Below the pieces are notes generated by a model. That model was not told the DNA's origin. It ran no database searches and saw only the letters and a program-made list of their open reading frames with translations. Source: a virus. Taken from it: a DNA stretch of 32,224 bases. The DNA is taken from IMG/VR virus record IMGVR_UViG_3300023049_000080, positions 1 to 32,224 of that record. One strand, written 5' to 3'. Positions 2,409 to 29,210 of this stretch are shown here, piece after piece. Each line of letters opens with the position of its first letter. Within the stretch, counting starts at the first letter, position 1. The position numbers and the translations under genes were made by a program.

Positions 2409-2452
2409 TTTGTTAACTATAGTTTTTAAAGCTTATAAGTATTATATATTTG
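2409..2452 (+). promoter_or_regulatory. promoter A (accessory-type, 44-base architecture)
   Basis: TTTGTTAA (2409-2416), GTTTTTA (2422-2428) and the perfect Bacteroidetes -7 box TATATTTG (2445-2452). The TTT at about -33 is 19 bases from the -7 box. The last G is 25 bases from the ATG at 2477, so the leader would be very short. The 44 bases match promoter B at 34 of 44 positions with no gaps, which supports function. Confidence 0.7.
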
Positions 2453-2476
2453 TAGTGTACTTAAAACAAACATACC

Positions 2477-2713
2477 ATGACAACTACTACAAAAACATTA
2501 AAAATTAAAATAGAAGGACATAAAGAAACATCTATAAATTTTGCAAGAATATCAAACGGAATAAATGTTTTTGAAGGTAAAACAACTAAAACAAAAGGGA
2601 AAAAAGAAGTTCATGTATATGTTTATGAAAAAAATCAAAGAGTTCAAGTAAAAGTTTTGCAAGGTCTTAAAAATTTAATAATAGAAAAAGATTTTTACAA
2701 ATTATACAACTAA
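2477..2713 (+). CDS. small basic protein of unknown function
   Basis: A 78-residue, lysine-rich product with alternating hydrophobic residues (TLKIKIEG, KEVHVYVYEK, QRVQVKVLQG) that suggest a small antiparallel beta-sheet followed by a short helix. No family was recognised. It is the first gene behind promoter A, with an A-rich leader (ACAAACATACC) and no Shine-Dalgarno. A GC-rich hairpin and the next small gene follow. High charge and small size are compatible with an early host-takeover or nucleic-acid-binding protein, but this is inference. Confidence 0.6.
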   Translation: MTTTTKTLKIKIEGHKETSINFARISNGINVFEGKTTKTKGKKEVHVYVYEKNQRVQVKVLQGLKNLIIEKDFYKLYN

Positions 2714-2721
2714 AAACCAAC

Positions 2722-2741
2722 CGGGGCTTAACCGCCCCTTT
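2722..2741 (+). repeat. intergenic GGGGC hairpin, copy 1
   Basis: CGGGGCTTAACCGCCCCTTT sits 8 bases after the stop of the preceding gene. GGGGC (2723-2727) pairs with GCCCC (2734-2738) around TTAACC, and a short T-run follows. It stands out as GC-rich in AT-rich DNA and recurs almost identically at 2979-2998 in the next intergenic gap. It could be a weak terminator or attenuator, or a processing or stabilising hairpin. Confidence 0.65.
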
Positions 2742-2753
2742 AACACCCAAATC

Positions 2754-2972
2754 ATGAAAATTACAATTAAAAAAGTAGAGCAAGTAATTAATCCAAAAAT
2801 TCAAAACTTAAAAACAGATCCAGAAATATATGAAGCAATTTACAGCACGTTTCAAATATTAGATCAAAAAATTGACTATAATTCAAAATTCGGAAAATCA
2901 ACTATATTTTTTTCAAACGCAAATTGGAGAGAAATTTCAAAAGATATAGCCAATACAATAAACGCTAAATAA
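2754..2972 (+). CDS. small protein of unknown function
   Basis: A 72-residue product with no recognised domain. It begins with a beta-like strand (MKITIKKVEQVI), then a helical stretch with EIYEAIYSTFQILDQ, and a C-terminal helix (NWREISKDIANTINAK). Acidic and basic residues are balanced. It lies in the promoter A operon between two copies of the same GGGGC hairpin, an arrangement that marks it as a unit of its own within the transcript. The start has an A/C-rich leader (ACCCAAATC) and no Shine-Dalgarno. Confidence 0.6.
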   Translation: MKITIKKVEQVINPKIQNLKTDPEIYEAIYSTFQILDQKIDYNSKFGKSTIFFSNANWREISKDIANTINAK

Positions 2973-2978
2973 AATAAA

Positions 2979-2998
2979 CGGGGCTTAACCGCCCTTTT
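2979..2998 (+). repeat. intergenic GGGGC hairpin, copy 2
   Basis: CGGGGCTTAACCGCCCTTTT is identical to the copy at 2722 for its first 16 bases, then has one C fewer and one more T. The stem is GGGC/GCCC with a possible G-U pair, the loop is TTAACC, and TTTT follows. It is placed 6 bases after the upstream stop, as in copy 1. Confidence 0.65.
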
Positions 2999-3012
2999 AA
3001 TAAAATAAAGCC

Positions 3013-3372
3013 ATGAAAAAAGAAATAAAAACCAAAGAAGTAGATTTTTTTATAGAAAAAGCTATTAACTACACTAAGGAAAGTAATAATATTGAAAGTA
3101 TAGAAAAACAAATTAAGTTAACTAAGGAGTTTGAGCCTGAATTTAAAGAACTCTACAACAATTTAACCCAACGTTTTACCTTTGAATTTGAAAAAAAAGA
3201 TTTTAACGAAAAGATTGAGTTTCTAGAATTTTTAATAAACGAAATCACAGAATCATTAATTAAGGCTAAAAATAAATTTTCTTTAATTTCTGAATCAAGT
3301 ATTAACAAACTTGAATCCTTAAGAGATACTTTTGAACGTAGATTGACAAAAGTTTATATTACTAAAAAATAA
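3013..3372 (+). CDS. helical coiled-coil protein of unknown function
   Basis: A 119-residue, highly charged and almost wholly helical protein (KEIKTKEVDFFIEKAINYTKES; FEFEKKDFNEKIEFLEFLINEITESLIKAKNKF). Long amphipathic stretches suggest a coiled coil or helical hairpin. No family was recognised. It is the last gene of the promoter A operon; about 90 bases separate it from the bidirectional terminator at 3464-3497, beyond which the baseplate genes run in the opposite direction. Confidence 0.6.
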   Translation: MKKEIKTKEVDFFIEKAINYTKESNNIESIEKQIKLTKEFEPEFKELYNNLTQRFTFEFEKKDFNEKIEFLEFLINEITESLIKAKNKFSLISESSINKLESLRDTFERRLTKVYITKK

Positions 3373-3410
3373 AAACTCATGAAACCAACAAAATAATCAA
3401 CTAATTAAAC

Positions 3411-3418
3411 TATATTTG
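3411..3418 (+). promoter_or_regulatory. isolated consensus -7 box before terminator
   Basis: TATATTTG matches TAnnTTTG exactly but has no TTG at the usual -33 distance and no gene downstream before the terminator at 3464-3497. If active it would make an RNA of roughly 75 bases ending in that hairpin. Low confidence: short AT-rich consensus matches arise easily by chance. Confidence 0.2.
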
Positions 3419-3463
3419 TAACGCTTCTTATATTTTTCATGATTATTTTTTTTAGGTTATTGC

Positions 3464-3497
3464 AAAAACTCCTTAGCTATCAAGTTAAGGAGTTTTT
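3464..3497. terminator. bidirectional terminator between early and baseplate genes
   Basis: A perfect 12-base-pair stem (AAAAACTCCTTA at 3464-3475 with TAAGGAGTTTTT at 3486-3497) and a 10-base loop, with T-runs on both strands. It separates convergent transcription units: the helical-protein gene from the left and the gp45-like spike gene from the right. The stop codon of the spike gene (3485-3487) lies at the edge of the loop, so the last codons are part of the hairpin. Confidence 0.9.
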
Positions 3498-3973
3498 ATT
3501 TGATCTATTTTTGAGCTGCTTATATTGGTATTAACAGGAGTGTGCTCATAAGTAAGACCTAAACCAGCAAACAGCGCTTTTATTTTTACTAATTCAACGT
3601 TAAGAAGTCCGTCTGACGAATCCAAAGAACTCTGTAAAGCACTAAACCTAACCGCATTGTCAACGGCTCCACCTATCTCGCATGTTCCATTTGTTTTTAA
3701 ATGAATTGCAAAACTTATTGAACCATCTATAGATTGCGAAAATATGCGTTTCTCGCCCTCTTTTGCTACTTGATTAGTGTTTATATACCCTATTATAACT
3801 GGCTCGGAGTTAACGGCTGTAGGAGAGTATATGGCGGTCATGTTTTTTAAAGGCTGTGAATCATCCCCATAATTAGATGCAACCTTAGCGGTTTTTACTC
3901 CGTACTCCTGCACCTTTAAAATACGCTTTCCGTTTTCAATTACAAAATCCCTTACCTTGCTAAATGTTATCAT
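3485..3973 (-). CDS. Mu gp45-like baseplate spike protein
   Basis: A 162-residue protein in the place of Mu gp45, the membrane-piercing central spike at the end of the tail tube. The pattern fits: an N-terminal beta domain, a polar middle (YSPTAVNSEPVIIGYIN), then GEKRIFSQ..GSISFAIHLKTNGTCEIGGAVDNAVRF, which matches the G-E-x-R-hydrophobic strand followed by Lys-x-x-Gly-x-hydrophobic-x-Ile repeats of the beta-helical spike. A helical stretch (LQSSLDSSDGLLNVELVKIKALFAG) follows. No His-rich iron site is obvious at the tip. It lies directly downstream of the hub gene (14-base gap) and is the last gene of the tail unit. Confidence 0.65.
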   Translation of the reverse strand: MITFSKVRDFVIENGKRILKVQEYGVKTAKVASNYGDDSQPLKNMTAIYSPTAVNSEPVIIGYINTNQVAKEGEKRIFSQSIDGSISFAIHLKTNGTCEIGGAVDNAVRFSALQSSLDSSDGLLNVELVKIKALFAGLGLTYEHTPVNTNISSSKIDQIKTP

Positions 3974-3987
3974 TTTTCCTTTGTGTT

Positions 3988-5013
3988 TTATTGTATCTCA
4001 AAAATATTTGTAGGTATTCCCCCGGTAAATGCCTCAGGTGTTAAACAATTAATTGTCATTGTATCCGCTCCGCTATCTTCTTTATAAATTATTTCATTAA
4101 TTACAAACTTTTGTTTTTTATAGATGAATAATTCTGGATTTATAAATTCGATTATTTGACCGCATAATAATTCATAATCTATTTTTGGCAATTCTAAAGC
4201 TAGCTGAATACCTCTTAATTCTGCTGCTAATACGTTTTGAGCTGCCTGTATAGTGCTAGTATCATCTCCACTGGAAAGTATCTTACAAACGCTCCTTATT
4301 TGCTCAACGTTTGGATTTTTTACGCCATCAACCGTACTGACTCCAACATTTTCATCGCTAGGTTGACGTCTTACTGTTATATCGCTATGAAAAGCCCTTC
4401 CATTAATAGCCATTTTGCTAGATAATAAATTTGAACTATCATAAGACCTTACAGGATTTGAGCCTATAAAAGCTTTAAAATAATAAACATCTCCTTTTTT
4501 CGTGTGACCAATAACTATATTTCTTTGACTTGCTAATTGAGTTAAAAAAGATGCTACAGATTGAGTTGGTTGAGCCACCGCCTTCTCGTAAACCAAATTC
4601 ATTTTATTGGAAACATTTCTTTCGATTAATTGACCTATTTCAAAAGGCTTTAATAATTGAGCTGATATTTCGGATAGTGATTGATTATTTTTCTCCAAAG
4701 GATAGACACTATCTGGAATTGTAACATCTTCTAAAATACCACTTTTTGTGTAACCGCTAAAAGATACTAATTGTGGCGTTTTAGAAGATGCGAAATCATT
4801 GTTAACAATATTACCAGTAAGCAGCAAATCCATATTATCTGAAAATATTTCAATCTTTGGATATGTTAGCGGCTTAAATATTTTTTGGTGCTCAACGTTA
4901 AAAGGATCAAATCTAGCATCAAAACTAAAAACACTGGCAAAAGTATCTAAATTAAATTTTAGAGTTAAATTGCTAAAATGATTAAAAAATTTATTTTCTA
5001 TTTTTATCTTCAT
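3988..5013 (-). CDS. Mu gp44/P-like baseplate hub protein
   Basis: A 341-residue protein resembling the Mu gpP (gp44)/late-control D-like hub, which closes the tube and holds the spike. Features: an N-terminal beta-barrel-like part with DARFDP and a LLTGNIVNNDF strand typical of the first hub domain, a second barrel (LVSFSGYTKSGILEDVTIPD), a helical segment (QSVASFLTQLASQRNIVIGHTKKGDVYYFKA) where the family has its split domain, and a C-terminal barrel with the long strand LLCGQIIEFINP. The order N - methyltransferase - P - gp45 matches Mu except for the inserted methyltransferase. Confidence 0.75.
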   Translation of the reverse strand: MKIKIENKFFNHFSNLTLKFNLDTFASVFSFDARFDPFNVEHQKIFKPLTYPKIEIFSDNMDLLLTGNIVNNDFASSKTPQLVSFSGYTKSGILEDVTIPDSVYPLEKNNQSLSEISAQLLKPFEIGQLIERNVSNKMNLVYEKAVAQPTQSVASFLTQLASQRNIVIGHTKKGDVYYFKAFIGSNPVRSYDSSNLLSSKMAINGRAFHSDITVRRQPSDENVGVSTVDGVKNPNVEQIRSVCKILSSGDDTSTIQAAQNVLAAELRGIQLALELPKIDYELLCGQIIEFINPELFIYKKQKFVINEIIYKEDSGADTMTINCLTPEAFTGGIPTNIFEIQ

Positions 5014-5014
5014 G

Positions 5015-5785
5015 TTAAAACATTTTAGGTTCTGTATCTATTTTGTTAATTCTTTGCTGTGCTATCTTAAAATAACTTTCATTATTTTCTATTCCGATTC
5101 CGTTTCGGTTTAGATTCTTGCATGCCAGCATAGTTGTTCCGCTTCCCATAGTAAAATCTAAAACAGTTTCGTTTTCGTTTGTATATGTTTTTATTAGGTA
5201 TTCCATTAATGGTACAGGTTTTTGTGTTGGGTGTACATTTTTATTATTACCCCTTGGAAATTTTAATATATTTTTAGGATAATTAGTATATTCAACTTTA
5301 AATTCTTTCTTATGTGAGGGTCTTGAACCTATTACATTTACAAATCCTGTGTTTGGTCTTTTGTGTATTTTATCTACCTTTATTAAATCTTGTGGGTTAT
5401 AAATCATTCTTTTGTTTCCTAATTGAGTTTTATGCCCCATACTACCCAAACTGAAAACACTTATATTTTCAGTTCTCTTCATTGGCATATTTTTAGCGTG
5501 AATAAATCCCGCACTTGTTGATTTTTCCCAAACCCAATCATACTTATAGTTCTTAATATTTGACATTCTTAAAGCACTACTAAAAGGCTCACTACCAAAT
5601 AAAACTATTGCACCGTTAGGTTTTATAATTCTGTTTAACTGTTCCCACATCAACTCAAAATCAATAATACTATCCCATTTACAATCAGTAGTTCCGTATG
5701 GCGGGTCTGTGATAATTGCATCAATAGAACCGCTTTCTATAGTATTCATTACTTGTAAACAATCGCCTAATCTTAAATCTATCAT
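5015..5785 (-). CDS. beta-class DNA methyltransferase (N6-adenine or N4-cytosine)
   Basis: A 256-residue S-adenosylmethionine-dependent methylase. The catalytic DPPYG lies at 27-31, followed by the target-recognition region, HPTQKP (185-190) and the SAM-binding DFTMGSGTT (210-218). Catalytic motif first and SAM motif last is the beta-class order. DPPY favours N6-adenine, although N4-cytosine enzymes share the fold. No restriction nuclease is adjacent, so it is a solitary enzyme that may protect phage DNA from host restriction or alter gene expression. It lies inside the baseplate cluster, 3 bases after the gpN-like gene and 1 base before the hub gene, on the same strand and with no promoter of its own. 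It therefore follows the late tail timing. Confidence 0.93.
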   Translation of the reverse strand: MIDLRLGDCLQVMNTIESGSIDAIITDPPYGTTDCKWDSIIDFELMWEQLNRIIKPNGAIVLFGSEPFSSALRMSNIKNYKYDWVWEKSTSAGFIHAKNMPMKRTENISVFSLGSMGHKTQLGNKRMIYNPQDLIKVDKIHKRPNTGFVNVIGSRPSHKKEFKVEYTNYPKNILKFPRGNNKNVHPTQKPVPLMEYLIKTYTNENETVLDFTMGSGTTMLACKNLNRNGIGIENNESYFKIAQQRINKIDTEPKMF

Positions 5786-5788
5786 AGC

Positions 5789-7003
5789 CTAAATATAATA
5801 AGTAATTAATCTACCTTTTTTTATTCTGTAAATTTCACTTAAACCCATGTTATTAATCCGCTTAAAAGTTTCCAAATTTTCATCACTTGCTAAACCTAAA
5901 AACCTGTGAGTTAACACTATTAAATTACTATCCTTTTCTAAAATAACACTCCTTTCTTGTCGAGCATCAAAACTTAGAACAAATAAACTTTGACTGGTAT
6001 ATGTAACCAAATCAATTAACGAGGATTGTAAATCTATATCTGGCGAATATTCATCATTAATATTTTCTAAAGGAATTTGGTTTGCATCAATAGTGGCTAA
6101 ATAATCATTATACAAACCAAACAATTCAGAATTTACACTTTCAATATCAGACCTAACTATATAATCATTTGGCAACGGATTAACCGAAGATTTAGCCAAA
6201 TTTCCAAGCAAGGCGGCTGCTTGAGTTTCGAAATAATATTTACTTTGTCGATTTTCTGGATTAATAGTTTTTTTAATTTCCTCGTAAGCTGATTTTATTG
6301 AATCGATTTTACTTCTAATATTTCTTATGAAATTTGCTGGCTCACTTAATACTAATTGAGCGGTTGTAATTGCAACCTCGGTTTCCTGAATAAGCAAATT
6401 TAAATCTCCTAAAGCTTTATTCTTTAAGGCAATATATTCGTTGAAATTAATAGAATCTGGCTCAAATCTAGCCGCCGAAATTTCTATTGATGATTTTAAA
6501 TCGTTTATATCGCCTGTTTGTGGCTCAGCTTTTGAAACATAATTTTGTATTCCTAAACTATTAAGTCTTACAACACGATCTTCAACCTCATCGGGTATGG
6601 AGTCAGAATCTTCTGGATAGTCATCAGCTATGCTTTCCCAAAATAAAACGTTTATTTCTGTATTGCCAAAACTATTGTCGTTCCTTTCTATATTAGTCGG
6701 ATGCCCTTTTAAAGTACCATAAAAAGGGTGAGTTATAACCCATGACCTTTTATCTTTTGCGCTGTTTTCAAAAGCTTTGGCTTGATTCAAATTATCCTCT
6801 CCAGTAAAATAAAAATTAAGCGGAAAAGATCCAGATTCAGATTCTTTTCGATCTATAAAAGAACCGCGAACATTTATAAAATCATACTTTGCAAAGTTTA
6901 GTTTTGTTGACTTTACACTATCGCGCCAAAGTGGATAGTAAACAGATCCATCGCCTGTTTTTATAGTGAATTTTATGTTTTCAAGTCTTTCCTTCCAAGC
7001 CAT
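5789..7003 (-). CDS. Mu gpN-like (DNA circularization N-terminal domain) tail protein
   Basis: About 404 residues. The first 140 match the 'DNA circularization' domain of Mu gpN: M-x-W-x-x-R-L start, FPLNFYFTGEDN near residues 60-70, then WVITHPFYGTLKGHP, the HP-x-x-G-x motif of the family. The family name is historical; structural work on Mu-like tails places it in the baseplate hub. The rest is helical with no clear motif. The frame also opens at Met -3 (7012), which would overlap the upstream gene by 10 bases. I prefer the ATG at 7003 because it gives the TAATG stop-start overlap used elsewhere in this genome and the usual MAWKERL start of the family. Confidence 0.8.
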   Translation of the reverse strand: MAWKERLENIKFTIKTGDGSVYYPLWRDSVKSTKLNFAKYDFINVRGSFIDRKESESGSFPLNFYFTGEDNLNQAKAFENSAKDKRSWVITHPFYGTLKGHPTNIERNDNSFGNTEINVLFWESIADDYPEDSDSIPDEVEDRVVRLNSLGIQNYVSKAEPQTGDINDLKSSIEISAARFEPDSINFNEYIALKNKALGDLNLLIQETEVAITTAQLVLSEPANFIRNIRSKIDSIKSAYEEIKKTINPENRQSKYYFETQAAALLGNLAKSSVNPLPNDYIVRSDIESVNSELFGLYNDYLATIDANQIPLENINDEYSPDIDLQSSLIDLVTYTSQSLFVLSFDARQERSVILEKDSNLIVLTHRFLGLASDENLETFKRINNMGLSEIYRIKKGRLITYYI

Positions 7004-7740
7004 TATTTCCAATGTTTTTTAAGTTGATATTCTGCGTTTTTTTTGTAGAATATATTTATCTTTTTTGAAGCTTTTGTTTTTGCTGCTCTTATAAAACCTC
7101 TACCATTTACATTTGCGCTATCAGCTTTTTTTAAATAGAAAACTTTTTTTAGCTTAAACCTTGCGCCTCTCGATCCTTTACTTCTTTTTAATCCTTTTAA
7201 CTCGTAAATCATGCCCGTTCCTTTATTTTCTAAAAGCATGTATTTTTTACCACTTGCGGCGGTTGACATTACTGCCGCGACAAATTTGGACTTTTTAGTT
7301 CCTCTATGAGATTTATAAGCCTTAGACGCTTTGTGAGCATCTAATTTAGTTAGCCAATTTGTACTTTGCAACCTTCTTTGCTTGCTTTTTGATACTCTAG
7401 CATCATCGTGAGGCACTAGCCTACTAGTGTCTAAATTACCGCCAAACTCTTGTTTTTCTAATTCATTAGCGATATCAGCTCCTTTTTTAGAATTTATTCC
7501 AGCCATAGACACCATGGAATTAATCTTAAACCCATTGGCTTTATCAACCGTGCTAAAAGCCTTTAAAAACGTTTTTCTCCTAGTAATAAATCTTTTTGCT
7601 CCTTGTATTGGGATTTCTTTTTTTGTCTCAAAAGCAGCATTGTTGAGCGTATTACGAACCGCACTAGGTAAAGCAGACCTATGAAGAGTTTCAAGTTTCA
7701 CAGTCAATTTAATAACCTCATCTGCATCTAGTTTTAACAT
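7003..7740 (-). CDS. prophage minor tail protein Z-like, very basic
   Basis: A 245-residue strongly basic protein, with lysine and arginine runs through the second half. The N-terminal 60 residues (LPSAVRNTLNNAAFETKKEIP and onward to FITRRKTFLKAF) fit the start of the lambda GpZ-like minor tail family: an alanine-rich helix, then a basic helix that ends before KAFSTVDKA. No enzymatic motif is seen. It lies between the fibre genes and the gpN-like gene, so it probably belongs to baseplate or tail completion. The C-terminus (FYKKNAEYQLKKHWK) overlaps the start of the gpN-like gene through TAATG. Confidence 0.5.
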   Translation of the reverse strand: MLKLDADEVIKLTVKLETLHRSALPSAVRNTLNNAAFETKKEIPIQGAKRFITRRKTFLKAFSTVDKANGFKINSMVSMAGINSKKGADIANELEKQEFGGNLDTSRLVPHDDARVSKSKQRRLQSTNWLTKLDAHKASKAYKSHRGTKKSKFVAAVMSTAASGKKYMLLENKGTGMIYELKGLKRSKGSRGARFKLKKVFYLKKADSANVNGRGFIRAAKTKASKKINIFYKKNAEYQLKKHWK

Positions 7741-7743
7741 GTT

Positions 7744-8901
7744 TTATATGTTCCACAAATTACCAATAAATCCACTTCTAAAATAAATCTTAGAATCTTG
7801 AACAAAAATCTGACCGTTAGTATTATTTATAAATTTTTCAAAGTTTCTAGTTTCTCCAGTAAAAGGATAACTGTAAATATTGCCACCTATAAAAGTGTAA
7901 AACTTTGAATCCTTTATAAAATAGTTTGTAGATTTTTGAAAATCAGAATTTAAAGTAATATCTGAGGATTGAGTAAATTCAAAAGTTTCCGAATCAAAAG
8001 AATAAGATCTTACCTTAAAATCATCGGCGGTATTATTACCGTTATTACTTAGGTAAATAAATCCATCATCAGCAAATAAATATGGAACGTGATCGGTTGA
8101 TGTTTGTTGAGTTACTGTAAATTTATTTACTACGGTTTCCAAATTTGTCAAGTTGAAAACATAAATATCGTAAACCGTGGCGGCGTCTGTTTTTGCTAAA
8201 CAAATTAAAGCTCCTTTATGAATTACTGCATCATAAATTAAAATGTCGTTATCGCCTTGATCTACTCTAATAACTTGTTGAACGTTTGTAGATTGAGGTC
8301 CGTTAGTTAAAATAAATCCATCGGATAAATAATAGCTAGTATTGGTTGAATTATAGCTTAACAGACCGCTATAGGGTAAGCTTATGGTGTTTTGTACTGT
8401 TTCCTTTGATAAGTCAATCAACCTAACATTTGAAAATTTGTTAACAATTAAAAGAACCTGCGAAGATGAATTTATATTTGATTGTACGCTAAAATTATAG
8501 GTATTATCTCCAGAGCCTTCTAATTCGTAGGTGGCTCCAGAAGACAAAGAATCAGAAACTTGACATATAAAAAAATAATTATTTGGTAAATTATCAAGGC
8601 TAACATTAATAGACACTTTTAATCCATTAACTGTTAACACTTGCATAGTGTCGTTTAATTCATTAGTGAAAACTTTTAAAGCGTCAAGGAGCTGATATTG
8701 AGTGCTTTCACTATCCTCTGTTTCTGTAAAATCAAGCCCCGCATCTCTTATTATTTTATAAATGTTAGTTATAACATCTCCATATATTTCACGAACCACA
8801 GGCGTGCCTGGATCCGTTGCCGTTTCGTTTTTAATTTGTCCATCTGGAAATAAAGTATTATTTCCGTCCTGTACGATTGGTAAATCTCTTATTGTTCTCA
8901 T
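7744..8901 (-). CDS. tail fibre 2, probable beta-propeller-like tip
   Basis: A 385-residue protein. Residues about 18-77 (DGQIKNETATDPGTPVVREIYGD to the LLDALKVFTNEL helix) resemble the same region of the neighbouring fibre, suggesting a shared baseplate-attachment module. The remainder is beta-rich, with repeated blades of about 45 residues such as ALICLAKTDAATVYDIYVFN, YLFADDGFIYLSNNGN, YFIKDSKFYTFIGGNIYSY and IFVQDSKIYFRSG: visual repeats of hydrophobic-D-x-hydrophobic-Y typical of a beta-propeller. It is likely a receptor-binding protein. No chaperone gene follows. The next gene starts 3 bases downstream. Confidence 0.6.
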   Translation of the reverse strand: MRTIRDLPIVQDGNNTLFPDGQIKNETATDPGTPVVREIYGDVITNIYKIIRDAGLDFTETEDSESTQYQLLDALKVFTNELNDTMQVLTVNGLKVSINVSLDNLPNNYFFICQVSDSLSSGATYELEGSGDNTYNFSVQSNINSSSQVLLIVNKFSNVRLIDLSKETVQNTISLPYSGLLSYNSTNTSYYLSDGFILTNGPQSTNVQQVIRVDQGDNDILIYDAVIHKGALICLAKTDAATVYDIYVFNLTNLETVVNKFTVTQQTSTDHVPYLFADDGFIYLSNNGNNTADDFKVRSYSFDSETFEFTQSSDITLNSDFQKSTNYFIKDSKFYTFIGGNIYSYPFTGETRNFEKFINNTNGQIFVQDSKIYFRSGFIGNLWNI

Positions 8902-8911
8902 GGAGTGTAGT

Positions 8912-14555: not shown

Positions 14556-14622
14556 AGCTACAAAAATAATAAAAAAATATATGGTAAGTTGTTTTTGTGG
14601 GTTTATATTATTTTACTAAAAC

Positions 14623-14666
14623 TTTGTTAATTATTGTTTATAGGGTTTATTTGTTTATTATGTTTG
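14623..14666 (+). promoter_or_regulatory. promoter C (accessory-type, 44-base architecture)
   Basis: TTTGTTAA (14623-14630), GTTTATA (14636-14642) and the -7 box TATGTTTG (14659-14666) at exactly the spacings seen in promoters A and B; it matches B at 32 of 44 positions ungapped. The -7 box ends 17 bases before the ATG at 14683. It lies back to back with the minus-strand tape measure promoter. Confidence 0.75.
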
Positions 14667-14667: not shown

Positions 14668-14695
14668 CAAAAATATAAACTTATGGAAGCGGCAA
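14668..14695 (-). promoter_or_regulatory. promoter of the tape measure-baseplate unit
   Basis: On the minus strand, TTG (14695-14693), a 17-base spacer, then TATTTTTG (14675-14668), an exact TAnnTTTG. It is needed because the terminator at 15459-15490 closes the upstream tail unit. The -33 element lies inside the first codons of the opposing gene and the -7 boxes of the two promoters are one base apart. Expected start near 14661, leader about 105 bases. Confidence 0.65.
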
Positions 14696-15441
14696 ATGTT
14701 GAGAATACTAAAATTTGTACTGGTTGTAAAATAGAAATGTTAGCAACTAAGGAGTTTTTTCATAGTCAAAAAGGTGGAAAATATGGTTTAGGTTCTAAGT
14801 GTAAACAATGCATAAACGGTGTTAATATAAAGCGGAATGAGGGAGATTGTGAAAAAGTTAAGGAATTTTATAGAAAATGGAAAAAAGACTATTCTGAAAA
14901 AGTCAAAAAACGTCAAAAAAAATACTATAAGAATAATTCTGAAAAATGTATGAAAGCTGCTGGAAAATGGAAAAAAAATAATCCTGAAAAAGTTAAAGAA
15001 AATCAAAGAAAAACGATAGAAAATCTAACAGATTCTTATATCGCTAGTTCATTAAGAGCAAGAGTCAACCACTTAAACCCTCAAGTCATAGAAACGAGAA
15101 GGCTAATAATTTTAATAAAAAGAGAACTTAGAAAAAATAACTTTAAAACCCTAGAAACAATGCAAGAAGATTCAACAAACAAAAACAATTCACAAATGGA
15201 AAACAATTTAAAAGAAAACGACAACAAAAGAGACCTAAATTTTGAGGTCAAAAATTCAGACGATTTAAACAAAATGCTTTCAGGCTTTTTGATGGATGTA
15301 AGACGTGGAAGTGTTACTCACTATTCAGCAAACAGTATTAATTTAGTAGCTGACAAAATCAATAAAAACAATTTAAACCAGTTAGAGTACAAAAGACTTT
15401 CTGGAGGTGATCGAAAGATTGATTTCTTTGAAAAGGAGTAG
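14683..15441 (+). CDS. zinc-finger accessory protein (HNH-like N-terminus, no HNH)
   Basis: A 252-residue protein in reverse orientation between tail chaperone and tape measure. The N-terminal CTGC...CKQC zinc finger (C12/C15 and C40/C43) followed by repeated K-W-K-K/N-P-E-K units (RKWKK, KKYYKNN, GKWKKNNPEK; about 63-115) is the well-known front part of phage HNH homing endonucleases. However, no HNH catalytic core follows: the rest is an Asn/Lys-rich linker and a C-terminal domain (about 190-252; LNKMLSGFLMDVRRGSVTHYSANSINLVAD and the end GDRKIDFFEKE) of unknown fold. It has its own promoter (C) and terminator. A DNA-binding or regulatory role is plausible, catalysis is not supported. Start at ATG 14683, only about 10 bases after the expected transcript start. 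Confidence 0.65.
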   Translation: MEAANVENTKICTGCKIEMLATKEFFHSQKGGKYGLGSKCKQCINGVNIKRNEGDCEKVKEFYRKWKKDYSEKVKKRQKKYYKNNSEKCMKAAGKWKKNNPEKVKENQRKTIENLTDSYIASSLRARVNHLNPQVIETRRLIILIKRELRKNNFKTLETMQEDSTNKNNSQMENNLKENDNKRDLNFEVKNSDDLNKMLSGFLMDVRRGSVTHYSANSINLVADKINKNNLNQLEYKRLSGGDRKIDFFEKE

Positions 15442-22103: not shown

Positions 22104-22172
22104 ATTACAATATTAACGATTATTTTTTTATCATAAGTTTTTTTGATAGTTTTATTTTTTTTGATAGCTAAT
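22104..22172 (-). other. intergenic gap with duplicated CTATCAAAAAAA motif
   Basis: This 69-base gap between the lysis genes and the protease holds two copies of TTTTTTTGATAG (plus strand; 22138-22149 and 22156-22167), 18 bases apart. No promoter consensus or terminator hairpin is clear. It may be a remnant duplication or a binding site. Confidence 0.4.
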
Positions 22173-22667: not shown

Positions 22668-22702
22668 CTTCTGTTTGTTTTTACTACCATCTTCTGTTTG
22701 TT
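22661..22702 (-). repeat. 19-base duplication at endolysin-holin junction
   Basis: CTACCATCTTCTGTTTGTT occurs at 22661-22679 and 22684-22702 (23-base period). One copy holds the holin start ATGGTAG and the other the endolysin end AGATGGTAG. Before duplication the two genes would have overlapped at ATGG-TAG. Confidence 0.85.
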
Positions 22703-23615: not shown

Positions 23616-23652
23616 TTTTTAGGTAGTTTTTTCATAATAAATTGTTTATTTG

Positions 23653-23928
23653 TTAAAATAATAATCCGCCTAAATAGACTCCTGTTGAAATTGCTATACC
23701 ACTAACCACAATATCCCAATTATTAATTTCTCCTTGTCTCCATTCCCAGATTAAGCCAATGATAAAAGCTAGAGGTAGGAATAAAATAGCCTTATCTAGT
23801 GCCTCTAAATTCCTAAAACCTAGCCAAACCCATGATAAAGATAAACAAGCTAGGAATCCTCCTGTTATGCCTACAATGGCGTGTAAATGGTGGCGTGTTC
23901 TTTTAAAGTAGTTTTTAATTTTTTTCAT
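23653..23928 (-). CDS. small multi-pass membrane protein
   Basis: A 91-residue protein with a basic start (KKIKNYFKRTRHHLHAIVG) and about three hydrophobic helices (GFLACLSLSWVWLG, AILFLPLAFIIGLIWEW, DIVVSGIAISTGVYLGGLLF). The sequence FIIGLIWEWRQG resembles a short conserved membrane motif found in small phage lysis-region proteins, but no family is certain. It overlaps the upstream gene by four bases (ATGA). Its position beside the holin suggests an accessory lysis or anti-holin role; that is inference. Confidence 0.6.
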   Translation of the reverse strand: MKKIKNYFKRTRHHLHAIVGITGGFLACLSLSWVWLGFRNLEALDKAILFLPLAFIIGLIWEWRQGEINNWDIVVSGIAISTGVYLGGLLF

Positions 23929-24137
23929 AATTCTGTATTATTATACCAACTATCTGGAATTTTATCTATTAAGGTCATGTCACTTTCGTAGTTCTCGTGC
24001 TTTAGTATTGCAAAGCCTTGTCCGTTTTGGTTGCTTGTAACATTTGCCCAAGAAGTTGTTGAACCTTGGTAGTTTTCTCCTAAAGTTACCTTTGTATTAT
24101 AATCTTCGCATTGTTCTTTTGTTCCTTTGTAGTACAT
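23925..24137 (-). CDS. small protein downstream of receptor-binding gene
   Basis: A 70-residue soluble protein rich in Tyr, Asn and Thr (ENYQGSTTSWANVTSNQNGQGF, ENYESDMTLIDKIPDSWYN). No family was recognised. It begins one base inside the stop of the concanavalin-like gene (TAATG), so it is translationally coupled, and overlaps the membrane protein gene by four bases. A fibre assembly helper or a small structural cap is possible, unproven. Confidence 0.55.
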   Translation of the reverse strand: MYYKGTKEQCEDYNTKVTLGENYQGSTTSWANVTSNQNGQGFAILKHENYESDMTLIDKIPDSWYNNTEL

Positions 24138-24970
24138 TAGTATATGTTGTTATATCTTGAATTAATATTATTTTCTTTAGCAACCGCATCATCTGTATTT
24201 TCAAAAATTACTAATTCTTGAAACGTAAACATTCCAAAATTAGAAGGGTTATCTGCCCTAAATCCTAGACCTAAAACATTGTCATCAAAAGCAAAATCAA
24301 TATTAAGATAAATTAAAAATTGATTATTAGTATCTGTAAAAAACTGACCTCTAGTAGTGAAGTTTTTTGAAATACCATTAATTACCTGTAAGTTATTTAC
24401 ATTTAAATTATCGTTTACTCTGGTGTTCGAAGAATCAGGTGTTACAACTCCTAAAAAATCATTAACCCCATAATTACTGCCTAATATTACCGAATTCTTT
24501 CCCTCATTATCTCCGACGTAAAACATGCCCTTGACGGCTACTCCATCATTAGGTGCATAAGTGGATAAGTAACCACCGTTATTATCTGCACTTCTGATAA
24601 TACAAGGTTTTCCCCCTTTAAGAATTACTGAACCATTAGAGACTATTTGACCCTGTAGATTTGCAGTGGTCTGAGTCATGTTGTTACTTCCTACTTGGTC
24701 GTATATAATACTTACAAAACCATTTCCAGAACCTACAAAATCTAATAAACTTGCAGTATCTAATTCATTATTTACAAATCCTATATCTAGTTCTGCGTTG
24801 TCACTAGACCTCCTAACTTTAATACAAAATCCTGTATAGTTTTTATCTAGTTTATCTAGGCTTAATCCTAAAGATGCGTTAGGAAATAAGTTTAACATTC
24901 CTTCAAAACCAGACCCTCCACCACCGTTTAACTTAGAATATTCTAAGCCTAATCCGAATCCGAGTCTCAT
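24137..24970 (-). CDS. ArabFuran-catal/concanavalin-like receptor-binding protein
   Basis: A 277-residue protein. The stretch LDKNYTGFCIKVRRSSDNAELDIGF (about 40-64), then DTASLLDFVGSGNGFVSIIYDQVGSNN (about 71-97), matches the start of the 'alpha-L-arabinofuranosidase B catalytic' domain as found in phage and bacterial surface proteins. The C-terminal strand and helix (MFTFQELVIFENTDDAVAKENNINSRYNN) fit the same concanavalin-like fold. Phage copies usually work as glycan-binding or tail-tip modules, and sugar cleavage cannot be shown here because catalytic residues are not assignable by eye. A short Gly-rich hinge (NGGGGSGF) follows the start. It overlaps the upstream gene by four bases. Confidence 0.7.
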   Translation of the reverse strand: MRLGFGLGLEYSKLNGGGGSGFEGMLNLFPNASLGLSLDKLDKNYTGFCIKVRRSSDNAELDIGFVNNELDTASLLDFVGSGNGFVSIIYDQVGSNNMTQTTANLQGQIVSNGSVILKGGKPCIIRSADNNGGYLSTYAPNDGVAVKGMFYVGDNEGKNSVILGSNYGVNDFLGVVTPDSSNTRVNDNLNVNNLQVINGISKNFTTRGQFFTDTNNQFLIYLNIDFAFDDNVLGLGFRADNPSNFGMFTFQELVIFENTDDAVAKENNINSRYNNIY

Positions 24971-25251
24971 AATTCATCGCTTTTAAAACATAAGATATCC
25001 CCCGTTAATCCTGTGATGTTTTTGTAAGGTCCAACTAAAGAACCTCCAGCTAATAATTTTACTGTAAATGAAGCATCGCCACCGCTTGTGGATGCAACCG
25101 TAAAATCACTATCTACATTGGCGTAAACAGCCATAAACTTCTCGCCTGTTGTGCTTGTTTCTCCAGTTGCTAATTGTCTTACTCCAAACTGCCCTAAGCT
25201 TGCTAGGTTGTTTATTTCAGCGTATTTTAATGTATTTTGTGGTTCTGCCAT
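24967..25251 (-). CDS. small beta-rich virion-type protein
   Basis: A 94-residue acidic protein with Thr, Ser and Gly-rich strands (FMAVYANVDSDFTVASTSGG, ASFTVKLLAGGSLVGPYKNITGLTGDILCFKS), similar in composition to fibre-associated or capsid-decorating proteins of Bacteroidetes phages. No family is named with confidence. It lies between the BspA-like and concanavalin-like genes, overlapping the latter by ATGA, so it is probably part of the receptor-binding set. Confidence 0.5.
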   Translation of the reverse strand: MAEPQNTLKYAEINNLASLGQFGVRQLATGETSTTGEKFMAVYANVDSDFTVASTSGGDASFTVKLLAGGSLVGPYKNITGLTGDILCFKSDEL

Positions 25252-25281
25252 TGTGTTTATTTATTTGTTTGTTAATATTAT

Positions 25282-25971
25282 TTATTCTAGCCCTCCGTCG
25301 ATAAACCTCCAACTATGATCAGCTATTAATAAGTCCTTTGCTGTTTCTCCTTCTGTATTATATTTTGAATCACCTGCGTTAAACAAAACACTAGAATTAG
25401 AATTTGCACCTTCCATTCTTATATATAGTTTTGAAACACTTTCCGTTTCTATTATATTTCCTTCTAATATACCAGTTCCGTTTGTCAAATTACTAAATTT
25501 TACTCTTGTTGGAATTACTGTTAAAGCACAATCTTTAAAAAGATTTGTACCATCTGTTATTGAATTTAAATAGTTTCCATCTTCTCCCAATTCATTTAAG
25601 TTACTGCATCCAAAAAACAAATTAGTCCTCGTGTCTTTAAAAAGACCAAATTGATTAATTTTTAATAACTTTAATTTATCACCTGAATTATTAAACCTTA
25701 AACCAGTAAAAGAATTTAAAAGAGAAGCTGTTATTGACAATCTATAAATTCCAGAAGTTGGCAAGTTAATCGTTTGTTCTCCAATTAAATCATTATAAAA
25801 TTCTGGAAATTGAGTACTTCCTATCTTAATAGCCTCTACATTATAACTACCTTGTGCTCCTGTAAATTGAAATTGACTAGAACCAGAACCTGCTTTAGTA
25901 GTGTCAATTTCAATTATAAAAGATCTATTATCTATTCTTAATCTCGCACTTGCTATAATTGACATATTCAT
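25282..25971 (-). CDS. BspA-like surface/receptor-binding protein
   Basis: A 229-residue protein. The front (FIIEIDTTKAGSGSSQFQFTGAQGSYNV, about 18-46) is the usual start of BspA-type proteins, followed by a short leucine-rich-like region (KLLKINQFGLFKDTRTNLFFGCSNLNELGEDGNYLNSITDGTNLFKDC) with the F-x-G-C-S-x-L-N repeat feel of the DUF285 family. It closes with AKDLLIADHSWRFIDGG, as such proteins do. No signal peptide is seen, so it is probably carried on the virion for host surface contact. Assignment by pattern. Confidence 0.55.
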   Translation of the reverse strand: MNMSIIASARLRIDNRSFIIEIDTTKAGSGSSQFQFTGAQGSYNVEAIKIGSTQFPEFYNDLIGEQTINLPTSGIYRLSITASLLNSFTGLRFNNSGDKLKLLKINQFGLFKDTRTNLFFGCSNLNELGEDGNYLNSITDGTNLFKDCALTVIPTRVKFSNLTNGTGILEGNIIETESVSKLYIRMEGANSNSSVLFNAGDSKYNTEGETAKDLLIADHSWRFIDGGLE

Positions 25972-25972
25972 A

Positions 25973-26707
25973 TTATGCTAGTTTTAGTGTGCCTGTTATA
26001 GTAGATATGTCGCTGCCTTTTGTTCTTATTCCAAAAACTGCGTTTTGACCAGCCGTTTCTTTTAAGAATCCTGCAAATACATTTAGTGTTGTTGATGCTT
26101 CAAACGTTAAGGCTCCTGTGCCTACTTGCTCTCCTTGAAACTCTAAATCAGCAGGTAACCCATCTGGCACCGTTGCAACGCATTCGTTTGAAAATTCTAT
26201 GTATTTGTTTACATCAGCTGCTTCAAACGTATATGTGGCGGTGCTTATAGGTTTCTTTGTCCTTTTTATTATTGGTAAATTATCTAAATCATCATAATCA
26301 TTGCTAAACCCTACTTTCGATACAATATTTAATAGTGGATTGCGTTCTTTGAAAATGTCTCCGTTAATATCATAGACCAAGTAATCTCCTTTTTCCCAAT
26401 CTATGCCGAAACGAGTAAAATCATTAAGAATTATATAGGCTTCTCTAAATTTATTTTTATCACCGTCTATTAATTCAGGTGTATTAGTTTCAGCGTTCCA
26501 CTGTGAGATATAAATTAAAACCTCTTGGCTTCCATTTGTGGATAAAATCCAATCATCGCTATTTGCTAATGAAGGCTCTGAATTTATTCCAGATAAGCTA
26601 ATCCACTCGTTACCTAAATAAGTAACGATTTGACCTACTTTTGGTCGCAAATTAACACTCCATAAAACCTTTTTATTCTCTGTATTACTAGTTGTTTGTG
26701 AAGCCAT
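25973..26707 (-). CDS. tail-fibre-type protein of unknown type
   Basis: A 244-residue protein. The front has a carbohydrate-binding-like strand pair (KVGQIVTYLGNEWISLSGINSEPSLANSDDWIL, about 23-55), the middle holds YDDLDNLPIIKRTK, typical of fibre linkers, and the C-terminal part (KYIEFSNECVATVPDGL, TLNVFAGFLKETAGQNAVFGIRTKG) is a beta-sandwich of fibre ends. Its position directly after the portal gene is unusual, since this place normally has the capsid protease. Function as receptor-binding or virion decoration is inferred from these patterns. Confidence 0.5.
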   Translation of the reverse strand: MASQTTSNTENKKVLWSVNLRPKVGQIVTYLGNEWISLSGINSEPSLANSDDWILSTNGSQEVLIYISQWNAETNTPELIDGDKNKFREAYIILNDFTRFGIDWEKGDYLVYDINGDIFKERNPLLNIVSKVGFSNDYDDLDNLPIIKRTKKPISTATYTFEAADVNKYIEFSNECVATVPDGLPADLEFQGEQVGTGALTFEASTTLNVFAGFLKETAGQNAVFGIRTKGSDISTITGTLKLA

Positions 26708-26727
26708 TTTTTATATTTCTTTTATTT

Positions 26728-28410
26728 CTAGTCGTTACCGTTTGCGCTTTCTCCGTTGTTTTCTCCGTTATTTCCGCCACCTCTTCCATTTACTCGCCCT
26801 TCCCTAGTTTCTCTAGGTTCTTCTAATAACGGCTTCAATTCAATACGAGAATTTTCCTTTTTGTATTTTTTGTAATTACTTATCCAATCGCCACCATTTG
26901 CCATTTCTGTAGCTTGCTCTCGGCTTATTAATGGACTATCATCTTTCAATAATTCTCTAATGGCTTTGGCTTCTTTTAGTGGATCAATATGAGGCATTTT
27001 TTTCGCTACAAATCGAGATGAATAAAAAGCTTCTAAAGCCATTTCATCATTTGTTGCAACGGCTCTATCATAACCAGAATCATCTAGCGTTCCTTTCATA
27101 TATTGGTAGTAACACCAAAAACGGTTAATTGGCTTGTAGAATTGCTCTACAATCACATATTCCCGTATAATATCAATAACATATTCCCACATATTTAACG
27201 CGGCTCTTGAGCTGCTATATGACTGCTCAAACATTTGATTAGCTACTTCTGGCGGAATGTCATTTGATGCACAAAGCGATCTAACAATTGCTTTATAGAA
27301 TGGATCAAAATTAACTTCGCTTTCGTTTGTTGTTGATTTTAATTTTGCCCCTCTCGGCAGGTTAAGGACTTGTCCACTTGTTGATTGCCTTAGAGCTTGG
27401 GCAGTTCTGCCGCTTTCTTCAAAAGTATTATCTTCATTGGTAACGTTGGATATTTTTCTAGCTCCCAATCCTCCTAACGGATTTTCTCCAGTTGAATTGT
27501 CATCATGCTCAAAAGTGTAAACCAAATCAGCCATTTTTTCGGCTTTAGAAACCGAAGCCTCAACAAATCTATCAAGTTTGGAAATCTTTTCCATTATTGA
27601 GCTAATTTGGGGGATACCCCTGTGATGATCTACACGATGTTTCCCGCCGTAAATCATCCATACCATAAGATTCCCTTTAGTATCTTTAGCTCTTAGTCTT
27701 TCGTAATCAGCTAGATTATTATTTTTGTCGGTTTTTACCCAAAATGCAACATGCTCGCCCTTTGGGCTGACTTCAACACCGTTAACTATTTTGTTTTTAT
27801 TCCCTTTTCCTTTGTCATCAAATGGCGTTTCAATTTGTTCGCCATCGATTAACTGTATTTTTATTCCTGTTTTTTCTAATCTCATTACAATAAGAGCATC
27901 CCCGCCCAAATAGGCAGTTTTAAAAGCATCGGTGGCTTTTGCGTGCAAGTTCTGGCGACCTGAATAGTCGCTTAATTTCGATTTTGCCCAAAGGTTAAAT
28001 AACCGCTCTTTTTTATTGATGTTTTCGTCACTAACTTGGTTATAGCCTAGTAATTGCAAAACTTCGTTTTCTGGCTCATATTCAAACTTTAAACCCGTAC
28101 CAACGCACCATTTAAAGAATTTACCAGTAATTAACTTAACTAAATCAGTTTTAAGATCTAATTCGTAAGCCCGAAGTCTTAACTTTAAGTGATCTGGCTT
28201 TAAATCGTAAATATTACCAAGCTCTCCAATGGTTTTTTCACCGTCGAAAGCAGCAGAGTAGACTAGGTTGTTTGTTCTAGGAAAAGCTGGCATGTAATTA
28301 CCTCCAAAACTATTAGGATCTAATTTTTTTAGCTCGCTTTTTTGCTTGCCTAGACCGCTTTTTTTATCAGCTTCTTTGGATTCCTTATTAAAAAAGTCGT
28401 ACCAAGCCAT
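26728..28410 (-). CDS. portal protein, lambda gpB family
   Basis: A 560-residue portal subunit forming the dodecameric ring through which DNA is packed and ejected. Lambda-type features: a basic start, KWCVGTGLKFEYEP (about 112-125), QLIDGEQIETPFD (about 185-197), the HHRGIPQISSIMEKISKLDRFVEASVSKAEKMADL region, then IVRSLCASNDIPPEVANQMFEQSYSSSRAALNMWEYVI, which is conserved throughout the family. The C-terminus is a Gly/Asn-rich tail (GRGGGNNGENNGESANG). It lies downstream of the gpW-like gene (4-base gap). Confidence 0.93.
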   Translation of the reverse strand: MAWYDFFNKESKEADKKSGLGKQKSELKKLDPNSFGGNYMPAFPRTNNLVYSAAFDGEKTIGELGNIYDLKPDHLKLRLRAYELDLKTDLVKLITGKFFKWCVGTGLKFEYEPENEVLQLLGYNQVSDENINKKERLFNLWAKSKLSDYSGRQNLHAKATDAFKTAYLGGDALIVMRLEKTGIKIQLIDGEQIETPFDDKGKGNKNKIVNGVEVSPKGEHVAFWVKTDKNNNLADYERLRAKDTKGNLMVWMIYGGKHRVDHHRGIPQISSIMEKISKLDRFVEASVSKAEKMADLVYTFEHDDNSTGENPLGGLGARKISNVTNEDNTFEESGRTAQALRQSTSGQVLNLPRGAKLKSTTNESEVNFDPFYKAIVRSLCASNDIPPEVANQMFEQSYSSSRAALNMWEYVIDIIREYVIVEQFYKPINRFWCYYQYMKGTLDDSGYDRAVATNDEMALEAFYSSRFVAKKMPHIDPLKEAKAIRELLKDDSPLISREQATEMANGGDWISNYKKYKKENSRIELKPLLEEPRETREGRVNGRGGGNNGENNGESANGND

Positions 28411-28413
28411 AAA

Positions 28414-28710
28414 TTAATAGTTTAATCGACCTCTTAATATAGTTGTTCGGCCGTTGTAGCGGTTAATATACATTTGTAGCTGAGTTTCTAAAGCCTGTAT
28501 TCCTTTGATTATTTGATCTAAAGATCTAAATTCTGTGCTAATTTTCATCTGACCATCATCTAAAGTATAAGAAGCTGTTCCAGAATCATCAATAGCATCA
28601 ATCATTTTATCATACATAGAATCGATTAAAAGCTCTATAGCTTCAATCTTAGCCTTGTTTGTTTCTCTTGATGTTATGTATTCAGATAAGGTGTAAACTA
28701 CTATTCCCAT
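28414..28710 (-). CDS. gpW-like head-tail joining protein
   Basis: A 98-residue protein between terminase and portal, the place of lambda gpW, which seals filled heads. The C-terminal two thirds (SYTLDDGQMKISTEFRSLDQIIKGIQALETQLQMYINRYNGRTTILRGRLNY) fit the gpW pattern: strand pair with D-G, then a helix I-x-x-L-E-x-Q-L and a flexible Arg-rich end. The N-terminal helix is longer than in lambda. The start follows a -7-like TATATTTG box by only 6 bases (28716-28723). Confidence 0.55.
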   Translation of the reverse strand: MGIVVYTLSEYITSRETNKAKIEAIELLIDSMYDKMIDAIDDSGTASYTLDDGQMKISTEFRSLDQIIKGIQALETQLQMYINRYNGRTTILRGRLNY

Positions 28711-28715
28711 AAAAG

Positions 28716-28723
28716 CAAATATA
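28716..28723 (-). promoter_or_regulatory. possible promoter for the head operon
   Basis: On the minus strand TATATTTG (28723-28716) is an exact -7 box 6 bases upstream of the gpW-like ATG, giving a nearly leaderless transcript. It lies directly after the terminator at 28728-28760, where a promoter for portal and capsid genes would be needed. A TTG (28750-28748) lies at a too-long 24-base spacing. Weak. Confidence 0.3.
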
Positions 28724-28727
28724 ATAA

Positions 28728-28760
28728 AAAAAAGCTATTGAGGTTAACAATAGCTTTTTT
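28728..28760. terminator. strong bidirectional terminator of the small-gene cassette
   Basis: A perfect 13-base-pair stem (AAAAAAGCTATTG at 28728-28740, CAATAGCTTTTTT at 28748-28760) and a 7-base loop, with T-runs on both strands. It lies 8 bases after the stop of the second cassette gene and before the gpW-like gene, so it ends the transcript from promoter B and would also stop terminase read-through. Confidence 0.9.
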
Positions 28761-28767
28761 ATATATT

Positions 28768-28956
28768 TTATTTCCAGAAAATTACTTTCCAATTAATATG
28801 AGGCATATCAAAATGGAATCTTTTTTTAGTTACAAAATAGGTGCAAAATGATTCTTTTGTTTCTCCGTCGCAATCGATTAAAACCTGATATTTTTTTTCT
28901 TTGTTAGGTTTTGTATCTTCTATTTTATTCCAGTTTTTAAAGCCTATTTTTTTCAT
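28768..28956 (-). CDS. small DUF551-like protein
   Basis: A 62-residue protein. W-x-K-I-E-D-x-K-P near residues 9-17, YQVLIDCDGE (23-32), a Tyr/Phe strand and a closing INWKVIFWK fit the small DUF551 layout (W-I-P-V-x-E-x-L-P ... V-L-V ... W-M-P-L). DUF551 genes are common in phages and their function is not known. It is the second gene of the promoter B cassette, overlapping its partner by ATGA. Pattern-based call. Confidence 0.45.
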   Translation of the reverse strand: MKKIGFKNWNKIEDTKPNKEKKYQVLIDCDGETKESFCTYFVTKKRFHFDMPHINWKVIFWK

Positions 28957-29144
28957 CTTACAAGGCTATCACTACCTACATAGCTAGGTCTACTGTGCAT
29001 TTCTATATCGCACATTGTTTGATTAAAAACTATATAATCATTTTTAGGAAAGTTATCCATTACAAATAAATGATATTTGTTTTTAGTAGCGTTTGTTTTG
29101 TTTGCACATTTCTTAGCTAGTTGGTTTATTGTAAGATTTTTCAT
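28953..29144 (-). CDS. small unknown protein of the moron-like cassette
   Basis: A 63-residue basic protein (NQLAKKCANKTNATKNKYHLFVMDNFPKND) with no recognised domain. Some hydrophobic strands (YHLFVMD, YIVFNQTM) suggest a small fold. It is the first gene behind promoter B (ATG 23 bases after the -7 box). Together with the next gene and the terminator it makes an independent unit set into the packaging operon, which suggests expression outside the late programme and a non-structural role. Confidence 0.5.
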   Translation of the reverse strand: MKNLTINQLAKKCANKTNATKNKYHLFVMDNFPKNDYIVFNQTMCDIEMHSRPSYVGSDSLVR

Positions 29145-29166
29145 GGCTTTATATTTTAATTATACT

Positions 29167-29210
29167 CAAATATAAGATTAACATAAGCTTTATAAACTAC
29201 TATTAACAAA
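29167..29210 (-). promoter_or_regulatory. promoter B (accessory-type, 44-base architecture)
   Basis: On the minus strand: TTTGTTAA (29210-29203), GTTTATA (29197-29191) and the perfect -7 box TATATTTG (29174-29167). It agrees with promoter A at 34 and promoter C at 32 of 44 positions, ungapped. Between terminase stop (29247) and the small gene start (29144). Confidence 0.75.

Follow-up and report, generated by a model that had tools for sequence, protein, structure and literature searches.

The virus record IMGVR_UViG_3300023049_000080 is a 32,224-base stretch of 34% G+C, possibly a fragment, and is called the window below. It carries three sites, A, B, and C, that belong to one promoter family. 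We think it probable, from the sequence comparisons that follow, that they are copies of an autonomous promoter module serving swappable accessory genes and that an upstream element in the module recruits polymerase by way of a bound protein. The module is made up of the upstream element YTAAAnnTTTGTTAA, a −33-like region, GTTTWTA, and the −7 box, TAnnTTTG, with 28 bases from the upstream element to the −7 box.

Under this proposal, the module would allow one clade of tailed phages, whose hosts are probably Bacteroidota, to express accessory genes independently of the late genes. Host RNA polymerase carrying the primary sigma factor would read the −7 box, aided by the −33-like region, and a sequence-specific protein would bind the upstream element on the helix face of the polymerase and recruit it. 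The likeliest binder would be a bacterial DNA-binding protein or the C-terminal domain of the polymerase alpha subunit, the latter making the sequence a UP-like element. Because the element is found in other virus records and in some bacterial promoters as well, either of these is likelier than an activator encoded by the phage. The module would sit at slots on apparent transcription unit borders, with varied cargo behind it. Promoter activity, its timing, the binder, activation rather than repression, and the borders of the units are predictions from the sequence.

Three copies of one promoter module

The original prediction, made from the letters alone, described A, B, and C as 44-base promoters of one shared architecture. 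Their sequences and coordinates proved to be exactly as given, and recomputing the identities returned the same values (34 of 44 positions for A and B, 32 of 44 for B and C). A and C also agree at 32 of 44 positions, and 28 of the 44 columns are invariant across the three sites; the next-best 44-mer anywhere in the window has 28 matches to one of them. The similarity runs about 7 bases farther upstream than the 44-mer, which gives the element YTAAAnnTTTGTTAA. The TTTGTTAA part is, as had been claimed, distinct from the −7 box, lying within an element 28 bases before it. As for the shared architecture, the upstream element and the −7 box are constant, and GTTTWTA turned out to be a less conserved, −33-like region.

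In promoter A (plus strand; match at 2402-2452), the upstream element TTAAAGTTTTGTTAA occupies 2402-2416, the −33-like GTTTTTA 2422-2428, and the −7 box TATATTTG 2445-2452. Promoter C, also on the plus strand, has its upstream element CTAAAACTTTGTTAA at 14616-14630, GTTTATA at 14636-14642, and the −7 box TATGTTTG at 14659-14666. Promoter B lies on the minus strand, with TTAAAACTTTGTTAA at 29203-29217, GTTTATA at 29191-29197, and the −7 box, again TATATTTG, at 29167-29174. From the −7 box to the ATG there are 24 bases in A, 22 in B, and 16 in C. Because the −7 box is taken to lie at −12 to −5, as it does in passages of PMC6847099, the upstream element falls at about −55 to −41; the −33-like region is named by the same placement.

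The module stands above chance

A weight matrix built from the sites of 11 relatives, with the window's own sites held out, scored 58.5, 57.9, and 39.4 at the three sites and 2.3 at the next window position, in agreement with the predicted single promoter family. The relatives had been gathered with the pattern of the original prediction, so the independent check is confined to positions outside that pattern. The core at fixed spacing was found in at least 117 stretches, against 12 for a reversed core control. Of 112 distinct core sites in the collected loci, 88 lay 8 to 70 bases before an open reading frame (ORF) starting with ATG, 16 had no such ORF found, and 8 lay inside ORFs. In 60 Markov-simulated windows, scanned on both strands, the maximum for a 14-site matrix was 16.3. 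Equally good matches were thus frequent neither in coding DNA nor in simulated sequence, which was part of the test that had been proposed along with the sites.

The signal of the module, as read from these sequences, resides in its exact spacing and its placement before ATGs. A loose gapped pattern returned 41 stretches in viral contigs, against 36 for the reversed control, and we therefore dropped the raw count as evidence. What the gapped scan did yield was the spacing: 17 of 42 loose-pattern sites had the exact spacing of the window, which is 1 of the 30 allowed, although 4 of the 17 were the window sites over again (identical). An ATG ORF of at least 30 amino acids began within 16 to 34 bases after 14 of the 17. 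The exact pattern occurred in 2 stretches in a genome collection of 84,980 species. One further TTTGTTAA at 28 bases from a TAnnTTTG, at 8437-8480 within the minus-strand gene 7744-8901, falls outside the eight top-scoring plus-strand positions of the matrix and looks like a chance match.

That chance in AT-rich DNA produced the three sites is hardly credible. The base composition of the window and the near-equal count for the reversed gapped pattern would allow for it, but the held-out scores and simulations, the 12 stretches of the reversed core control, and the helical phasing described below all speak against it. Scans for sigma-70 promoters (83 sites against 66.2 in shuffles, standard deviation 7.3, and 65 against 59.3, standard deviation 9.0) and for terminator-like sites (11 in one scan and 16 in the other, with 8.9 in shuffles for each) were not used as evidence by number.

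Cargo is exchanged behind the module at four slots

The module is repeated within single records of relatives. Allowing up to 2 mismatches, we counted 7 copies in a 36-kb record (G004), 6 in one of 35 kb (G009), 5 in one of 18 kb (G015), and 4 each in two others (G003 and G007); the reversed control gave 1 match across the 24 virus records searched. Diverged alleles retain YTAAAnnTTTGTTAA and the −7 box, and the middle GTTTWTA region varies.

Locating the window's proteins on the collected loci with tblastn defined four slots: A, between the helicase gene and end162; B, between the TerL gene and gp05; C, between the tape measure gene and c64; and D, before the TerS gene. Occupancy was countable at slot B. 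Slots A, C, and D were reached mostly via the module itself and for that reason have no occupancy figure. The slot B sample comprised 20 contigs with TerL identity of at least 87% and both flanking genes visible, some of them near-duplicates. The module was present in 10 (one identical to the window), 86 to 156 bases without the module separated the flanking genes in 8, and the other 2 (L054 and L063) held some 600 bases of inserted DNA with no module. The cultured phage phi38:2 lacks the module at the TerL slot, and its slots B and C hold no gene. Another promoter-like string that recurs, TTTTGTACTATATTAGCAATC or a close variant, heads a different insert at the TerL slot and persists in gene-less alleles (L054, L063, L057, and L060).

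Of the 61 alleles with a score above 28, 58 had an ORF behind them, and the cargo was grouped into families by blastp linkage at a threshold of 1e-3. This gave 35 families, 29 of which were represented by an allele at a locus where a core gene of the clade was also found. The cargo is mobile: gene A2, second behind promoter A in the window, has a 96% identical counterpart directly behind the promoter in L032. Besides the endonuclease/HNH-like cargo C of the window, annotations were RadC-like, Rieske, DUF7168/DUF2786, and YopX-family (4 of 10 tested cargos). PADLOC matched none of 10 cargos, six of the window's among them. The claim that the promoter family heads accessory genes is upheld, with cargo exchanged at four slots. 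Whatever follows the module there is, to judge from these arrangements, probably a self-standing gene cassette, and the module offers a sequence handle for locating phage accessory genes of unassigned function.

From the sequence, the slots seem to lie at transcription unit borders, just upstream of resident promoters, because of what stands at slots B and C. Slot B holds a terminator-like hairpin (28728-28760, minus strand; 13 pairs and a T-run) and then TATATTTG (28716-28723, minus strand) just before the gp05-like gene, a possible resident promoter after the slot. The hairpin recurs in L058 and L065, two near-empty alleles, and we therefore assign it to the slot and not to the cassette. At slot C, a TAnnTTTG box, TATTTTTG (14561-14568, minus strand), directly precedes the tape measure ATG and is a possible resident late promoter bordering the slot.

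Descent does, in addition, connect the copies of the entire promoter in the window's clade, where it heads swappable cargo. It is nevertheless unlikely that plain common descent accounts for the sites, that is, that the sites arose when a single strong host-type promoter was duplicated together with its cargo and that the upstream likeness reflects recency or recombination. The likeness of A, B, and C beyond the core (A and B above all), the conserved leader types, and the exchange of cargo at shared slots would all follow from descent, but the middle changes in diverged alleles that keep the upstream element and the −7 box, and the helical distance is kept in other virus records.

Inverted repeats of 9 to 12 bases occur in the spacer of 5 of 57 promoter alleles (L022, L190, L005, and L167), against a shuffled mean of 0.55 and maximum of 3. 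Two of the five alleles share one cargo family, and the repeats are perhaps cargo-specific operators.

The upstream element keeps a helical phase in other viruses

The element recurs, with its phasing unchanged, in other virus records, which range from 10 to 388 kb. We scanned IMG/VR viral contigs with the gap to the −7 box left free at 14 to 42 bases. The scans matched at least 119 stretches in the forward orientation and at least 120 in the reverse, of which 110 and 118, respectively, were examined. The forward stretches gave 93 sites after removal of near-duplicates, 87 of them with a gap of 14 to 42. The gap was bimodal, with 32 sites at 26 to 28 bases and 37 at 36 to 38, so that 69 of 87 fell in six gaps where 18 were expected. 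The two peaks differ by one helical turn. In the reverse orientation, 59 of 102 nonredundant sites lay at 32 to 34 bases, about half a turn off both forward peaks. Across 26 virus records chosen for holding a site, there were 55 matches, against 0 in the control. The general logos read TGTTAAAgTTTTGTTAAA, that is, two TGTTAAA direct repeats 11 bases apart.

Such a helical phase, kept in both orientations, is probably the mark of a protein touching polymerase from upstream. A broader proposal, to which we give slightly less than an even chance, is that Bacteroidota phages have an undescribed element in common, TGTTAAA-nnnn-TGTTAAA when complete. It would recruit polymerase in both orientations from set faces of the helix, at a distance to the −7 box of 27 or 37 bases when forward and of 33 to 34 when reversed. 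As such it would be the phylum's counterpart of a UP element or of a global activator's box, and would be exploited by phage accessory-gene cassettes. We did not find the element described in the open-licence literature searched, which is weak evidence of absence. In a blastn search of the 78-base stretch around site B against cultured phages, the best E value among the matches listed (20 of 70 records) was 0.2. Bacteroidota promoter recognition past the −7 box is poorly defined, and an element with a helical spacing rule makes it a testable question whether the contact is UP-like or made by a widespread activator.

The same data bear on who would bind. MotA is the activator of T4 middle promoters, and a phage-encoded activator could similarly bind the upstream element and activate the set of accessory genes at a particular stage of infection. 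The spacing of 28 bases fixed in the clade, the weakly conserved −33 region, and the presence of cargo rather than core genes behind the promoter would suit such a protein. We consider it improbable, in that a single phage activator is unlikely to be shared by the other virus records and the bacterial promoters that have this element and phasing. A repressor operator, through which a phage or host repressor would silence or tune the accessory genes, seems more doubtful still. TTTGTTA does recur within a 16-base palindrome before the TerS gene (32129-32144), and the spacer inverted repeats described above also count in its favor. However, the palindrome is another site, the element's place upstream of the core promoter is one from which activators and UP elements work, and phasing by one turn is what recruitment typically shows. 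Moreover, phi38:2 has no feature with an integrase annotation, though many of its features are hypothetical.

The element in bacterial genomes

The upstream element is not private to the phage, since it occurs, phased and in both orientations, in other virus records and also in some promoters of Flavobacteriaceae. It is rare in these bacteria: the pattern TTAAANNTTTGTTAAN{14,42}TANNTTTG had 110 matches in 299 Flavobacteriaceae genomes, against 15 in the reversed control (hand tally). Collapsed by hand to 86, these included 23 at 26 to 28 bases, 14 at 36 to 38, and 11 at 40. The reverse orientation gave 52 matches in 149 genomes, against 9 in the control (hand tally). Many bacterial matches come from a few orthologous promoters, those of TetR, PpiC/SurA-like, DUF4870-like, and MNPSxSGWIKK genes; these names come from reading proteins by eye (30 match loci and eight regions), without a family search.

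PhoB boxes are direct repeats 11 bases apart. The string TGTTAAANNTTTGTTAAA had 52 matches in the 299 genomes, against 10 in the control (hand tally), and no phosphate gene was seen by eye in 30 loci with it, which left a Pho-box reading of the element unsupported. Fourteen of the 30 lie upstream of one conserved response-regulator-like orthologue (MTLNCVVVDDSAIQRL, by eye; loci among L421-L448), and 4 precede the MNPSxSGWIKK gene.

Several observations weigh against a recruiting element in an accessory-gene module. The spacing samples cover 110 of at least 119 and 118 of at least 120 stretches, and shared descent was removed from them only in part. The first repeat in the window reads CTTAAA or ACTAAA, without the G, where the general logo has GTTAAA. 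The pattern TTTGTTAA-N14-42-TAnnTTTG is absent from nine cultured Bacteroidota phages (phi38:2 and eight others). In two Flavobacteriaceae genomes (0.8 Mb examined), TTTGTTAA had no clear orientation bias in front of genes (7 versus 4 and 8 versus 11), on which ground we rejected it as a general bacterial promoter element. The module is missing from some accessory genes: the inserts of L054 and L063 have none, and neither does a methyltransferase gene in the window (5015-5785). The loose-pattern counts, the identical sites among the exactly spaced ones, and the slot B hairpin, which belongs to the slot and not to the cassette, point the same way.

The original prediction had ended on a shared activator, repressor, or sigma-contact element controlling a set of accessory genes. 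Of this, the single promoter family stood; a shared regulator of a regulon is one possible reading, and a general UP-like polymerase contact, or descent of a promoter copied with its cargo, fits about as well.

Comparison with known systems

Passages of PMC6847099 and PMC9723704 place the box of Bacteroidota primary-sigma promoters at −12 to −5, with the start 4 to 5 bases on and −33 weakly conserved; in Flavobacterium johnsoniae, −33 is weak (passage of PMC6847099). Unlike sigma-ABfr promoters as described in those passages (PMC6847099, PMC9723704), the module has an extra element at about −55 to −41. Like sigma-ABfr promoters (−33 TTTG and −7 TAnnTTTG), sites A, B, and C end in TAnnTTTG 16 to 24 bases before an ATG, and position and leader length fit; unlike them, they have GTTTWTA at −33 in place of a TTTG at the usual spacing.

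UP elements range from −40 to −60. In E. coli, the UP element is A/T-rich and lies upstream of the −35 region (passage of PMC4390567), and the A/T-rich element of the module resembles it in both respects, given the position derived from the −7 box. Unlike the UP element, the module's element has G residues at conserved positions, and its general logo shows the two direct repeats. By sequence statistics, it takes two positions that differ by one turn and occurs in either orientation, and alpha binding is putative.

Passages of PMC3203893 and PMC11373665 describe extended start-associated sequences (ESAS) of cluster K mycobacteriophages as a promoter-containing motif of about 46 to 47 bases repeated in the genome, with seven intergenic copies in Adephagia. 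ESAS includes an imperfect inverted repeat of 15 to 17 bases and accompanies a start-site motif. The module is likewise a promoter motif repeated within one phage genome. Unlike ESAS, it has no constant inverted repeat; repeats of at least 9 bases occur in 5 of 57 alleles and share no one sequence. PeSL (promoter/stem-loop) cassettes of T4-type phages have conserved regulatory signals at borders of gene shuffling (passage of PMC4503421). The module, too, is a conserved signal at such borders, but in the window no stem-loop was seen to accompany the promoter constantly. The candidates there were a hairpin beside B (29216-29241; the folded stretch at −8.4 kcal/mol) and weak whole-stretch folds upstream of A and C.

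A moron, as in lambdoid phages, is an extra gene with its own promoter between genes that are adjacent in relatives. Insertion between such genes was found at slots B and C, where the extra genes each stand behind a predicted promoter. Unlike morons, many cargos have one promoter sequence in common, and no terminator is carried with the insert: the slot B hairpin also stands in near-empty alleles, no clear terminator follows cargo C, and the hairpins after A1 and A2 are weak. The module would work like a moron promoter and ESAS, and partly like PeSL, and corresponds to the full definition of none of them as far as seen here.

Gene layout and other features of the window

The minus-strand late genes encode TerS-like, gpA-type TerL, portal, head protease, major head, tail sheath, tape measure, and baseplate hub proteins, and the plus-strand arm bears the helicase gene. 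The closest cultured phages are the Cellulophaga phages phiSM, phi38:2, and their kin (TerL, 63%). For the genes compared, the gene order of phi38:2, in which the tail sheath is annotated, is that of the window. The −7 box and these relatives are the reason that we take the host to be probably a Bacteroidota bacterium. The methyltransferase gene, which is for a DNA methyltransferase, is situated among the tail genes and runs in the late direction.

Behind promoter A, on the plus strand, lie A1 (2477-2713; 78 amino acids, no family match), A2 (2754-2972; 72 amino acids), and A3 (3013-3372; 119 amino acids, no clear family). Near-identical GGGGCTTAACCGCCC hairpins follow A1 (2723-2738) and A2 (2976-2994). 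A 15-bp stem at 3464-3497 (plus strand), where the plus-strand arm meets the late arm, is perhaps a terminator; scans of this kind gave 11 terminator-like sites against 8.9 in shuffles. Cargo C (14683-15441, plus strand; 252 amino acids) is endonuclease/HNH-like in its N-terminal part (phrog_2340, E value of 3.3e-07; phrog_7091, E value of 0.0012) and is transcribed in the direction opposite to the late genes. It contains an internal repeat with a 45-base spacing (14846-15012). Promoter B is followed on the minus strand by B1 (28953-29144; 63 amino acids) and B2 (28768-28956; 62 amino acids), neither with an assigned function. The hairpin beside it, AAGGGTT...AACCCTT (29241-29216, minus strand), lies between the TerL stop and promoter B, touches the upstream element, and has no T-run. 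The palindrome at 32129-32144, TTTGTTATATAACAAA, is perfect over its 16 bases, is the sole exact copy in the window, and lies about 60 bases before the TerS start; it resembles an operator close to a late promoter.

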